Below are positions 20,409 to 26,270 of a stretch of DNA of 64,000 bases, piece after piece. Where the stretch lies: positions 1-64,000 of the forward strand of contig CAMCWC010000012.1 of assembly GCA_945882415.1 (NCBI GenBank). The letters run 5' to 3'. The stretch is from Chthonomonas calidirosea (GTDB lineage Bacteria; Armatimonadota; Fimbriimonadia; Fimbriimonadales; Fimbriimonadaceae). Position numbers and translations under genes: made by a program. How positions within the stretch are numbered: position 1 is the first letter of the stretch; the number at the start of each line of letters is the position of its first letter. Under the pieces are notes generated by a model that did no database searches, was not told the origin of the DNA, and worked only from the letters and a program-made list of their open reading frames with translations.

Positions 20409-21044
20409 TTACGTTCGCTTTTGGACGTTTGCCCGCATCGGTTTGGTCTTAACAACTTCGGTCAACCGCTTTCGAATGGATCGTGATAACCCAAAATTCA
20501 TCAACATTTGACCATAAACCCGCGGCTCGACCAAGAGCCGAAACGGCACGTCACCCGAATGCCCCTCGATGCTGATCCAGCCCCCCAAGCCAAGCATCGT
20601 GTGCACGTTTGGCCGAAACTTAACTCGTTCAACATCCGCGCGCAGCACGCGAATCTTGCGGGTGTCGCTGATGAACCGAATCTCATCTTGATCCACCACC
20701 AAGAAACCAACATCCTCGTGAGCATCCAAAACCCCCGCGAACTTGGGCGAGGCGAAACCGACAAACCATCGCTCCGCGCCAAGGCTTTCCCGCCGAAACT
20801 CGAGCCGTTTCCGCAACTCGGCCTCCATATGACGGTTCACCTGAACCCCAGATAAATTCACCCCAAGCCAGCCACAAAACAGCCCGGCAAGCATCCACCA
20901 AAGACCCTCACCAAGATAATCCTGTTTCTGAAGAATCTGAACAAATCCGTAGGCGGTTGGGGGGAGCCAAAACAGAAACGGAATCAGGTTCCCCATCAGA
21001 CGACGCTGACGAGTCCAAATTTTCGTTTCCGGTTCTTGACTCAC
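20409..21044 (-). CDS. Two-helix membrane protein of unknown function
   Basis: A 211-residue protein (GTG start at 21044, reading VSQEPETKIW) with two adjacent membrane helices (MGNLIPFLFWLPPTAYGFVQIL and GEGLWWMLAGLFCGWLGVNL). They are followed by a soluble domain of about 130 residues with PH-like beta strands (FLVVDQDEIRFISDTRKIRVLRADVERVKFRPN). It is transcribed divergently from the AddB-like gene with only 22 bases between starts. The longer frame upstream would overlap that gene and is rejected. Function unknown. Confidence 0.65.
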   Translation of the reverse strand: MSQEPETKIWTRQRRLMGNLIPFLFWLPPTAYGFVQILQKQDYLGEGLWWMLAGLFCGWLGVNLSGVQVNRHMEAELRKRLEFRRESLGAERWFVGFASPKFAGVLDAHEDVGFLVVDQDEIRFISDTRKIRVLRADVERVKFRPNVHTMLGLGGWISIEGHSGDVPFRLLVEPRVYGQMLMNFGLSRSIRKRLTEVVKTKPMRANVQKRT

Positions 21045-21066: not shown

Positions 21067-23916
21067 ATGGGCAATGGCAGGCTACGGGTCATCCGCATCG
21101 TTCCCGGCCCCAATCAGGTCTCGGCGGTCGTGCGCCAATTCTGCCAAGTACCGGAGGGCGTCATCACCGCTTTCTCGGACGGCATCCTCACCTTTGTTAG
21201 ATCCGTCGTGCCCGAGTACACCGCTGAAGTGAAGGCATTCGGCGAGGTCAGTCGCAAGATGCTGTTGCTCTGCGGACAAGACCCACCCAAAATTGCCGCC
21301 GCTCCGTACATCCAAGCCGCCGTTGCCCGCGCGTGCACCGACCTCGATGACGATTCCCCGTTCCACGGCTCGCGGAACTTTGTCGGCACCCACATCGCCA
21401 TCGCCGACGCGCTCCACGAACTTCACGCCTGGGGCCTCGACGCTGATCGACTCGACGCCATCGCCGTCCAAACCACCGACCCGCTCCGCGCAAAGAAACT
21501 TGAGTCACTTTCCCAAATCGATCGCGCCGTCACCACCCGGCTCGAATCGCTAAACCTCTGCCGAAACTCCGTGCATTTGCAAGCGAGCTTTGGCGAAATC
21601 CCAGAGTTCGACGGCGACTCGAAGCGCTTACTCGTCATCGTCGGCAGCGAGTTTTCCCCGCTCCGCCTGAAGTGGATCCAGTGGGCCGCCGAAGCGGGGA
21701 TGGAGATCACTGCCGTCTTCTATCGGCACTCCGGCACGGCCGACCTCTTTGCCGGCGCAAACCGAGCCATCGAACTCCTTGACCAGCCGGTTGAAGACAT
21801 TGGCGATGGAAACGCCTTCATCCGGCAGCTCTTCGCCGAAGACTTCGAACCAACCGCCGACATCGCGGTGCAGCTTCGCAGCGCGCCGGACCCGCTCGCC
21901 GAATGCGAATGGGCGATCCGCGCCGTTCTGGATCACGGAAGTCCCGAGGATGCGGCTATCTATGTTCGCGACCTCGAGCCGTACGCCTCGATCCTGAAGG
22001 CCACCGCCCTGCGCTTCGGGGTTCCCCTCTCCATCGCCCATCGCGTGCCTCTGCTCACCAACGCCGCCGCCCGCGCTAGCGTCCGCCTGCTCAAATCGCT
22101 CTGCGGCACGGACGTCCGCCAGCTGCGGTTTATCCCGAACCTCTCCTACTTGCGACTCTCACGAGACGACCAAAACCGCCTCAGCCAGATCATCGAAGAC
22201 GCCCACCGAAAGCGGCAAAACGCCTGGGACGAACTTGAGTACGTTCTGAAAACCGAAGGTGAGCGGTTCGCTTGGCTTGCCACTGTCCTCGATTGGCGAC
22301 GCCGCGCCTTCGCGCAGCCCGCCACCAGCGTCGAGTGGCACGAGCGACTCAAGGAACTCCTGCCCACCCTTCCTTGGTTCGACGCTGCCGACACCCGGCA
22401 GCCCGAGCTGAACCTCCGCGACCTCAGCGCCATGCCCGCGCTCCTACGAGGGATCGCCGCTTATGCCAGCGTCGACCAGGTCGGTGAACCCCAAGCCATC
22501 GGGTTCGATTCCTTCGTGAAGCTCGCCGAAACCCTCTGGGATCCGATGCAGATCACCCTTCCTAGATCGCCGAACGGACTTAAGGTTTGCAGCAACCCAG
22601 AGCAGATGCCCAACGTTTCGTTCGTCGCCGTGTTGGGAATGTTGGAAGGCGTCTTCCCCAAGCGTCGCTCCGAAAACGCCGTGCTCGATGACGCCGACCG
22701 CGAGGAGATTTCCCACTTCGCTCCCGACCTCCCGCGGCTCGCAAATTCCCACGATAAGGCCCGCGAAGAGCGAGACCTGTTCTATCAGGTCTGCGCTACC
22801 GCTAACGCCAAGCTCTACTTGAGCTATCCCCGAACCGTCGGCGACAAAGACAACATTCCCGCTTACTATCTCGAAGTCGTGAAGCGCCTCATCCGCGAGC
22901 CCGATGAGGAAAACTTCCGCCGCCGGAACGTCGTACCCAGCACCCCCACTTTGGCCCCTGATATCGCGCTAGCCCAATCTCTTGGCGTTCGGACGACCAA
23001 GAGAAGGGTCTTCGATCTCGCAACGTCGCAGGCAAAAGCCGTGATCCCTGGCAACGTGCCAACCGCATTCCGGATCAACGAACTCGCCGACGCCCTCGAG
23101 TGTCCGTTCCGCTACACGTTCGAACGACGTCTTCGCATTCAAGCCCGGTCGAAAGGTGCACGCTGGTACCAACTCACCCAGCTACCGAACAACTCGACGC
23201 TAGCAAGCCAAGCAACCCGTTCCGAAGCCGAAGCTGCCCTCATCACGACCCTGGAGGCCCTCCTCGAGGAGCAATACGCTCATGTCCCTGACTACGAATT
23301 GCGACTCATGCGCGCCGGCGGGGAGCGCGTGATCCAGGAATGGGTCACCCGTGAGTTCGATGCCCGCGAGCACTGGAACCGCGGCGAAACCCAAGTCAAT
23401 GTCGGCTTTGACCGTTTCAACGACCGACCGAACCGAACCGGCGACATTCGCCTTGTCGGCACCGTGCCCGCCGTCTCGGAATCCGGGCTAATCGACGTTG
23501 TCCATTTGTACAAGTTCAGTACCAAAGAGATTAGCGAAATCTCCCCGAAGCACCGATTCGAACTCGGACTCTACATGCTCGCCTTCTGGCATCCTGGCCG
23601 GTTTGTCTTTGTGGAAGTCGATGCGATGAACGGCAAGCGGATCCGCTATGGAATCTCCAGCGACTACGTCCCTGGGCAATCGCAGAACGTTTCCCGTAAT
23701 CTGCGCATGGAGTACCTAGAAGCCTCAAAATCCGGGGCCGACGCTTGCAAGGCCGTTTTGCGAGAGACCAAGGAAACCTTGTTAACCGTCCTCCAGAACA
23801 TTCGCCAAGGCTCAATCGCGGCCATCCCCGGAAGCTACTGCACATTCTGCGACCACGCCGAACTATGCCGCGTCTCCGGCGACTACGCCCCCGCCGATGA
23901 GGAGGCCGGAGAATGA
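21067..23916 (+). CDS. AddB-like recombination subunit with degenerate active sites
   Basis: A 949-residue protein. Four cysteines (C679, then C925, C928, C934 in YCTFCDHAELC) match in spacing the iron-sulfur staple of AddB-type nuclease domains. The partner helicase follows with a 4-base overlap, which supports AddB. Two features are odd. The expected Walker A near the N-terminus reads VPGPNQVSAVVRQF with no GK(S/T). In the nuclease region, the place where GxIDRxD and DYK are expected reads VGTVPAVSESGLIDVVHLYKFS, so both catalytic acids appear lost. It may be a structural or recognition subunit for double-strand-break processing. Confidence 0.78.
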   Translation: MGNGRLRVIRIVPGPNQVSAVVRQFCQVPEGVITAFSDGILTFVRSVVPEYTAEVKAFGEVSRKMLLLCGQDPPKIAAAPYIQAAVARACTDLDDDSPFHGSRNFVGTHIAIADALHELHAWGLDADRLDAIAVQTTDPLRAKKLESLSQIDRAVTTRLESLNLCRNSVHLQASFGEIPEFDGDSKRLLVIVGSEFSPLRLKWIQWAAEAGMEITAVFYRHSGTADLFAGANRAIELLDQPVEDIGDGNAFIRQLFAEDFEPTADIAVQLRSAPDPLAECEWAIRAVLDHGSPEDAAIYVRDLEPYASILKATALRFGVPLSIAHRVPLLTNAAARASVRLLKSLCGTDVRQLRFIPNLSYLRLSRDDQNRLSQIIEDAHRKRQNAWDELEYVLKTEGERFAWLATVLDWRRRAFAQPATSVEWHERLKELLPTLPWFDAADTRQPELNLRDLSAMPALLRGIAAYASVDQVGEPQAIGFDSFVKLAETLWDPMQITLPRSPNGLKVCSNPEQMPNVSFVAVLGMLEGVFPKRRSENAVLDDADREEISHFAPDLPRLANSHDKAREERDLFYQVCATANAKLYLSYPRTVGDKDNIPAYYLEVVKRLIREPDEENFRRRNVVPSTPTLAPDIALAQSLGVRTTKRRVFDLATSQAKAVIPGNVPTAFRINELADALECPFRYTFERRLRIQARSKGARWYQLTQLPNNSTLASQATRSEAEAALITTLEALLEEQYAHVPDYELRLMRAGGERVIQEWVTREFDAREHWNRGETQVNVGFDRFNDRPNRTGDIRLVGTVPAVSESGLIDVVHLYKFSTKEISEISPKHRFELGLYMLAFWHPGRFVFVEVDAMNGKRIRYGISSDYVPGQSQNVSRNLRMEYLEASKSGADACKAVLRETKETLLTVLQNIRQGSIAAIPGSYCTFCDHAELCRVSGDYAPADEEAGE

Positions 23917-26270
23917 GATTCACCACCGAGCAACGCGCGGTTATCGAAAACGATCAGTCCAGCTTTGTGGTCGTTGCCGCCGCCGGATCGGGCAAAACCT
24001 CCGTCCTTGCCGAGCGCTACCTGCGCCTCGTCCAACAAGGCCATTCGCCCGATTCCATCCTGACCATCACCTTCACCAACAAGGCCGCCGCCGATATGAA
24101 GCGTCGAATTGTCGATCGTCTGCGGCGAGAACGCCTGTACGACGAAGCGCAAATCGCCGAAACCGGCCCGATCCAAACCTTCCATGCCTTCTGCGAGCGC
24201 ATCCTTCGAGAAAACGCCCTCGTCGCTGGCCTAGACCCCCAGTTCAACATCTTGAGCCCCGGTGATGCGTCCCAGCTGAGACGCCAATGCATTCGAGACG
24301 TCCTCGCCACGGACTTGCGAGAGTTCCCCGAGGCCGCCGACCTAGTACGAACCGCTGCCGGAAAGCAAGGCTTCCAAGCCAGTTCGCCCTACCAACAACT
24401 TGAAGACACCGTCATTGGCGTGCTGGAAGGGATGCATAGCAGCACCTTCTCGGACGACCATTACCAGCAGAAATTTGGAACTCTCGAAGCCGCTCTGGCA
24501 TCATTCGGACGCTTCGTCCAAGCACAACTCGACCCTGATCTCGACGTCGATCTTTCAGACATCTCAATCGAGAACTGGAATGAAGCCATTACTTCCGCCT
24601 ATGCCGCCGCAAAAAAGACCGATCGCATCCGATTCGCCAAGCCAGCCTGGGTCAACAAATCGAACGGAAAGGATCAGTCCACATACCTTCGCCACACCGT
24701 TGGCGTGGTGCAGCTCGCTCTCGACGCCTCGTGGCGAATCCGCGTGCAGATGCGGCGATCTCAGCAGTTCGATTTCAGCGCCCTTGAGCACCTCACAGTG
24801 GGCTTACTAAAAGACCGCGTGGAAGCCCGAACCCGCCTCCAGCGCCAGTATCGATACGTCATGGTCGACGAATCGCAGGACATGAACCCGATCCAGGACG
24901 AGCTGGTCAGCCTTCTCGGCGTTCGAGAAGTGATGCAAGTCGGCGATCCTCAGCAAAGTATCTACGGCTTCCGCATGGCCGATGTTGAGCGGTTTCAGTC
25001 CAAAGCATCTGAAACCAGCACCCTCCGGCTCGGGTTCAATTTCCGCTCCGAACCCGGGATCATCAACTTCGTCAACGAGTTCTTCCGCGATCAATGGCCC
25101 GACAACTATTCGCCGATGCAGAAGCTCGGTCAAGTATCGGAAGTCCCTGAGGACGACCCGTTCGCAGAACCTTCGCTGGACTTCAGCGGCGTTGAACACT
25201 GGCCGATCGGCGATACAAATTACGCACTGATCGCAACAAGAATTCAAGAGCTGATCCGAGACGGAACCGCCCCCGGAAAGATCACCGTTCTCGTGCGAAG
25301 CACGAAGTTTGCGGTGAATATTCAGGAAGCGTTGGACAAAACTGGCATCCCCGCCGCGATTGTAGGCGGCTCCTCCAAGTTCTACGCCCGCATGGAAGTC
25401 CGCGACCTTGCGAACATGCTCACCGCCCTGGCCAACCCGTACGACGACTTCGCCTTGCTGGCGACCCTCGGCGGACCCGCCGCCCAGCTTTCCCTCGACG
25501 CTCTAGTTGCCCTCAGTGCCGTCACGCCGGTGTCGGAGCAGCTTTCCAGCATCCAACTAGAATTGCCCGAGGATCAGGCGAAGCTCAACGCCTTCCGCAC
25601 CTGGTTCGAACCCCTTCGCGAAGGCGCCGACCGCATGTCCGCCGCTGAAGTACTGGCGGAAGTCTTCCGCTCAAGCCCCCTCCTCGTCCACGTTGCGAAG
25701 GGACCGGGCGGAGAGCAAGCTCTAGCAAACGTTCGCAAGCTCCTGATGATGGCCAGCGATCAGCCCGACCTTGGCCCGCTCGACTTCGCCGAACAAATGC
25801 GGACCATCAGCGAGCTAAAGGAGCAAGAAGGCGACGCCCCGGTTCATGAAGACGAAAGCGTCGGCGAGTCCGAGCGTCCGGTCCAAATCATGACCATCCA
25901 CAAGGCCAAGGGGCTGGAATTCCACACTGTCGTTCTGCCCGACACGCAAGGCGCGTTCAAAAAAAAGATTCAATCAGTGATATTCGATCAGCGCTTGCCA
26001 CTTTTATCCGTAAAGCTCGAATCGGGCGAAGGGCTTATCCACCGGCTGCTTCACCATTTGATCTCCGAGCGATCTCTCGCCGAAGAGCTCCGCGTGCTGT
26101 ACGTCGCCCTCACCCGCGCTAAGCACCGACTTTGCATTGTGAGTGTGAACACGAAAACAGACTCTGCGACCCAGCGCTTGCAAAGAACCTTCAGCCGCCT
26201 AGGTGACAAGATCACCACGCGTGGCGCGGTAAGCCCACCCGACGAGAACTCGGTACCCTCTGACGAATGA
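23913..26270 (+). CDS. AddA/UvrD-like SF1A helicase without nuclease domain
   Basis: A 785-residue DNA helicase. Motifs: Q-motif TEQRAVIEN, Walker A AAAGSGKTS (about residues 27-35), TFTNKAA, IQTFHAFC, VDESQDMNPIQDELV, GDPQQSIYGFR, LGFNFRS, TIHKAKGLEFHTVVLP and LRVLYVALTRAKHRL. It ends about 45 residues after the last motif. Classical AddA (about 1200 residues) carries a C-terminal RecB-type nuclease, which is absent here. The start overlaps the AddB-like stop (ATGA at 23913). It is presumed to unwind DNA with its partner; where the nuclease activity comes from is unclear. Confidence 0.88.
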   Translation: MRFTTEQRAVIENDQSSFVVVAAAGSGKTSVLAERYLRLVQQGHSPDSILTITFTNKAAADMKRRIVDRLRRERLYDEAQIAETGPIQTFHAFCERILRENALVAGLDPQFNILSPGDASQLRRQCIRDVLATDLREFPEAADLVRTAAGKQGFQASSPYQQLEDTVIGVLEGMHSSTFSDDHYQQKFGTLEAALASFGRFVQAQLDPDLDVDLSDISIENWNEAITSAYAAAKKTDRIRFAKPAWVNKSNGKDQSTYLRHTVGVVQLALDASWRIRVQMRRSQQFDFSALEHLTVGLLKDRVEARTRLQRQYRYVMVDESQDMNPIQDELVSLLGVREVMQVGDPQQSIYGFRMADVERFQSKASETSTLRLGFNFRSEPGIINFVNEFFRDQWPDNYSPMQKLGQVSEVPEDDPFAEPSLDFSGVEHWPIGDTNYALIATRIQELIRDGTAPGKITVLVRSTKFAVNIQEALDKTGIPAAIVGGSSKFYARMEVRDLANMLTALANPYDDFALLATLGGPAAQLSLDALVALSAVTPVSEQLSSIQLELPEDQAKLNAFRTWFEPLREGADRMSAAEVLAEVFRSSPLLVHVAKGPGGEQALANVRKLLMMASDQPDLGPLDFAEQMRTISELKEQEGDAPVHEDESVGESERPVQIMTIHKAKGLEFHTVVLPDTQGAFKKKIQSVIFDQRLPLLSVKLESGEGLIHRLLHHLISERSLAEELRVLYVALTRAKHRLCIVSVNTKTDSATQRLQRTFSRLGDKITTRGAVSPPDENSVPSDE

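Follow-up and report, generated by a model that had tools for sequence, protein, structure and literature searches.

An AddAB-type gene pair of Fimbriimonadaceae in which neither subunit retains a recognisable nuclease site

The gene pair and its flanking genes

The window (i.e. the whole stretch of DNA analysed, 64,000 nucleotides) belongs to a genome of 3.36 Mb whose near relatives are Fimbriimonadaceae (Armatimonadota). It carries two overlapping genes on the forward strand, encoding an AddB-like and an AddA-like protein, with the following features.

21067..23916, + strand: AddB-like subunit, 949 aa, its helicase-like and nuclease-like domains both apparently dead
21100..21123, + strand: former Walker A of AddB, reads VPGPNQVS
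23080..23913, + strand: nuclease-like domain of AddB, residues 672-949 (PF12705, 4e-10 at 672-935)
23101..23103, + strand: Fe-S cysteine C679 of AddB, invariant in the dead and active AddBs compared
23458..23478, + strand: lost GxxDRxD site of AddB, GTVPAVS at residues 798-804
23506..23514, + strand: lost D(Y)K site of AddB, LYK at residues 814-816
23839..23868, + strand: Fe-S cysteines C925, C928 and C934 of AddB, arranged as CxxCxxxxxC; all three in 82/82 readable family members
23913..23916, + strand: ATGA, 4-base overlap of the addB stop and the addA start
23913..26270, + strand: AddA-like helicase, 785 aa, without a C-terminal nuclease domain
23976..23999, + strand: intact Walker A of AddA, AAAGSGKT

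The letters and coordinates that the original prediction had given for both genes were right throughout. The features above also bear out what it had said of the 4-base overlap, of the lost Walker A, GxIDRxD and DYK sites of AddB and of the four retained Fe-S cysteines. The two genes adjoin one another at nearly all loci of the family.

Upstream of the pair, a divergent gene (20409-21044, - strand) adjoins addB in 32/33 Fimbriimonadaceae loci. Its product begins with two long helices (probably membrane) and continues into a PH-like fold (best Z 10.6, 3voq_A) with an invariant D, H, H, E and R; it matched no Pfam family, and the gene was not seen at the addAB loci of other families. The membrane-like helices and the PH-like fold ruled it out as the missing nuclease. 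Downstream of addA in the window lie two FAD oxidase genes, and no gene for a RecD helicase subunit stands beside the pair on either flank. A gene for a nitrilase-type carbon-nitrogen hydrolase follows addA in 21 of the 33 family loci (~14.1-15.1 kb in L135, L136, L138 and others) and is absent from this position in the window.

Fold and catalytic residues of the two subunits

AddA was predicted to stop soon after its helicase core, and domain matches agreed: the protein matched PF00580 (2.6e-56) and PF13361 (UvrD helicase), and a profile search of its 785 residues returned no match to PF12705. At most 44 residues followed the helicase profile (two families), and motifs I, II and III were intact in all 48 family AddAs scored. 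The nuclease domain of AddA is missing throughout the order and also in families f12, f13, f19 and f24, where the open frames run to ~860-1040; the AddAs of most other families have at least 1,200 aa.

In AddB, a weak PDDEXK_1 match covers residues 672-935. Modelling and superposition on B. subtilis AddB had been proposed as a check, and an AlphaFold model built with 28 relatives (mean pLDDT 86.6) was compared with known structures using VIA-align. It superposed on B. subtilis AddB (3u4q_B) with Z 29.7 and rmsd 4.8 over 903 of 949 residues, followed by RecC (1w36_F, Z 22.2) and AdnA (Z 21.4). The AddB fold is thus intact in the model: with 903/949 residues aligned, the nuclease-like domain is present as a fold and there is no extra domain that could hide a nuclease.

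Comparison of columns between active and dead AddBs separated the catalytic residues from this scaffold. Ten positions (H708, E778, D801, R802, D804, D814, Y815, K816, Q832 and Y836, window numbering) showed 95-100% conservation across 21 active AddBs and had lost it in the window AddB and its 90 dead relatives, while C679, C925, C928, C934 and R935 were 100% conserved in both the 91 dead and the 21 active proteins. A pattern in which ten catalytic columns are lost and the cysteine and R935 columns stay complete is not one of chance; as read from the alignment, the catalytic residues of AddB are lost and the scaffold is retained.

These properties place the pair among known systems as follows. 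With B. subtilis AddAB (PDB 3u4q, 3u44, 4ceh, 4cei, 4cej) it shares the gene pair, the SF1A motor of AddA, the modelled full-length AddB fold and the four Fe-S cysteines; in B. subtilis, however, both nuclease domains are active, whereas the window AddA has none and its AddB is dead and without a Walker A. E. coli RecC, the next-best family by fold, is likewise an AddB-type subunit whose inactivated helicase-like and nuclease-like domains are kept as structure (PMC1185551), but RecBCD has an active nuclease in RecB, plus RecD, and the window pair is without any nuclease; assignment to RecBCD also fails on fold, since RecC scores below AddB. AdnAB, with a motor and a nuclease in each subunit, was rejected too, as the window AddB has neither a Walker A nor a nuclease site and AdnA gave the lower score reported above. 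NCBIfam names alone would file the pair as the helicase-exonuclease AddAB, which is misleading given that the nuclease features are lost; neither equivalog cut-off was reached (TIGR02785, addA, 270.8 against 707.65 bits; TIGR02773, addB, 38.3 against 903.7 bits). We conclude that the pair derives from AddAB; it lacks the family-defining nuclease features, and its probable role is that of the helicase half.

Distribution of the losses and selection on the genes

Of 291 genomes of the phylum, 162 yielded an AddB. C-termini were aligned for AddBs of the window's family (f1), of f2-f5, which are four further families in its order, and of 20 other Armatimonadota. The intact D...D-Y-K set, and with it the complete DEK triad for which a comparison of orthologues had been suggested, was present in 0/83 AddBs of f1 and 0/8 of its sister family f2. 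The three C-terminal cysteines were nevertheless kept in all readable members of both families (82/82 and 7/7), and the Walker A was lost in 80/80 and 7/7, respectively; only some other AddBs have one. The nuclease motif was intact in f3 (7/7), f4 (1/1) and f5 (1/1), as it was in most other Armatimonadota. The AddABs of f3, f4 and f5 share with the window pair the order, a nuclease-free AddA and the Fe-S pattern but, unlike it, keep GxxDRxD, DYK and the Q and Y residues in AddB (9/9), so that one nuclease remains. In most f3 genomes addA and addB are on different contigs, and in G163 (f3, one contig; L104 and L113) AddA was present with no AddB match at 1e-5.

In a tree built from the non-nuclease part of AddB, f1 and f2 form one clade (SH-aLRT 100), and the nuclease state of AddB changes three times: at the base of f1 and f2, in G045 and in G047, the last two in f13. 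Because AddA in f13 is short and nuclease-free, G045 and G047 also have nuclease-free pairs; at their loci (L114 and L131) the AddB motif has degraded to DYT and HYR, in what appear to be separate losses. Judged from these sequences, the absence of nuclease sites in the window genome is no local defect and spans ~90 related species. The AddA nuclease was probably lost first, in the wider clade, and the AddB nuclease later, at the base of the two families.

Both addA and addB are under strong purifying selection. Relative to the closest relative (91% identical), AddA had a dN/dS of 0.072 and AddB one of 0.047, with 0.078 in the nuclease-like part of AddB; these ratios come from a single close pair and are rough because of high synonymous change (dS ~0.6-1.2, near saturation). 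The nuclease-like core of AddB gave 0.10, faster than the rest, as would be expected under relaxed constraint.

Two rival readings concern the state of the pair itself. In one, AddB still cuts, using a rearranged active site that motif comparison misses. Active-site residues are known to migrate in the PD-(D/E)xK superfamily, the first-position Asp persists in 22/83 AddBs of the family and 8/8 of the sister family, and the D or K of DYK persists in a few dead-family AddBs; moreover, because AddB identity between genera is low (~25-38%), some members may have a wholly new, rewired site. The original prediction had asked whether Asp/Glu-Lys residues stood elsewhere in the domain, but the column comparison revealed no new conserved acid and lysine set: the columns with D or E in at least 75% of dead AddBs (632, 744, 763, 852, 932 and 942) have no conserved Lys partner, and no Lys has become newly conserved. 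E763, the strongest remaining acid, and D852 are conserved in active AddBs too. We therefore regard a rearranged site as very improbable. The other reading, plain decay of addAB into pseudogenes, finds an example in G074 (Armatimonadetes bacterium 55-13; L019, L143), where the addB frame is broken near its Fe-S end, but it is already contradicted by the conservation data and seems to us next to impossible: the frames are uninterrupted in essentially every genome examined, dN/dS is 0.05-0.08, and neither the Fe-S cysteines of AddB (82/82) nor motifs I-III of the motor (48/48) have been lost. The lack of a DEK triad in orthologues, the intact AddB fold and the purifying selection together support the predicted maintained break-processing complex that would have lost its cutting ability.

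Candidate enzymes for strand trimming

With both cutting parts of AddAB lost, another enzyme probably trims the broken end. The reading we favour, with moderate confidence, is that AddAB is kept as an end-binding helicase, with RecJ trimming and RecFOR loading RecA. In B. subtilis the 3' strand is cut by the AddA nuclease and the 5' strand by the AddB nuclease (PMC4824097), and the nuclease-dead helicase RecB1080CD of E. coli repairs breaks together with RecJ, which acts on the 5' strand, and RecFOR (PMC3375238). By analogy, the Fe-S-latched AddB domain and AddA would grip the broken duplex end, AddA would unwind it without cutting, RecJ would degrade the 5'-ended strand that was formerly the target of AddB, and RecFOR would put RecA on the 3' strand. 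Nuclease-free AddAB would then be a natural counterpart of the recB1080 'hybrid' pathway, except that RecB1080CD is a laboratory point mutant of reduced fitness and the window state is natural and fixed across two bacterial families. Of all steps in this scheme, the identity of the nuclease that trims in vivo is the most uncertain. RecJ is the most likely candidate and was ranked foremost because its polarity fits the strand left open by the dead AddB. RecJ, RecO and RecQ are all present in the window genome; across the order, RecJ scored above its cut-off in 99/113 genomes, including essentially every near-complete one, and RecO was found in 108/113. Being near-universal in the order, RecJ and RecO do not by their presence separate dead from active AddAB.

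That the nuclease is borrowed from elsewhere, as the original prediction had offered, is plausible, and the genome search that it had called for did find a separate RecB-type enzyme. This stand-alone protein of 269 aa (G000:C23; PF12705, 1.3e-37) has intact motifs (GRIDRID...VVDYKSG) and the four cysteines, and occurs in almost every genome of the order. It could cut in trans, docked on or beside the nuclease-free AddAB. Its distribution by family follows AddA length (9/10 families with a short AddA, 2/16 with a long one; Fisher p 1.6e-4, from a hand tally by family that ignores kinship, so that relatedness inflates the association), and in two genomes its gene is close by, two genes away from addB (G177) or ~4 kb away from addA (G175). 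However, neither the window genome nor any of the 33 family loci has it close to addAB, and it is also present in f3-f5, where AddB is active, and in f10, f11, f14, f15, f26 and f27, where AddA matches are UvrD-size or missing. As the enzyme accompanies active AddBs and seems to occur even where AddAB is lacking, its tie to AddAB is loose, and its acting as the AddAB nuclease seems to us unlikely. We give rather less credence still to a complex that no longer resects at all and serves either as a helicase that binds ends or remodels forks or as a RecA loader, while RecQ and RecJ resect independently. The presence of RecQ, RecJ and RecO, the loss of both nucleases and the retention of the Fe-S end-binding element would suit this role; nevertheless, recB1080 is a nuclease-free complex that still feeds resection (PMC3375238), and the helicase motifs and the full AddB architecture have been retained.

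By definition, AddAB and RecBCD combine a helicase with a nuclease that Chi keeps in check. AddAB itself, the inactivated nuclease-like domain in RecC (PMC1185551) and the recB1080 pathway are already known; in the portion of the literature searched, no natural AddAB or RecBCD was described as having lost every nuclease. Tentatively, the pair may represent an Fe-S-anchored, possibly Chi-independent, end-unwinding motor of the AddAB/RecBCD class, which would have no nuclease of its own, use RecJ or the stand-alone RecB-type enzyme, and have been disarmed ~3 times in Armatimonadota. AddB identity of ~15% makes a map of Chi-contact residues unreliable. If this proposal is true, a machine that only unwinds DNA and grips its ends is worth keeping without any cutting site. 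The pair would also offer natural tests of whether the Fe-S nuclease fold exists to bind DNA ends and not for catalysis, and of the fate of Chi control once nothing remains to control, and its close relatives in the order with an active AddB nuclease make a stepwise study of the transition possible.

Two further observations concern RecB-type genes. Long open frames in G118 and G119 gave the appearance of a fused stand-alone nuclease; this was rejected, since the N-terminal extra is a frame opposite another gene. At L003 175-2763 (G000:C2), a gene for an XRE/ImmA-type regulator adjoins one for a TM0106/DUF2779 RecB-like protein of 498 aa.
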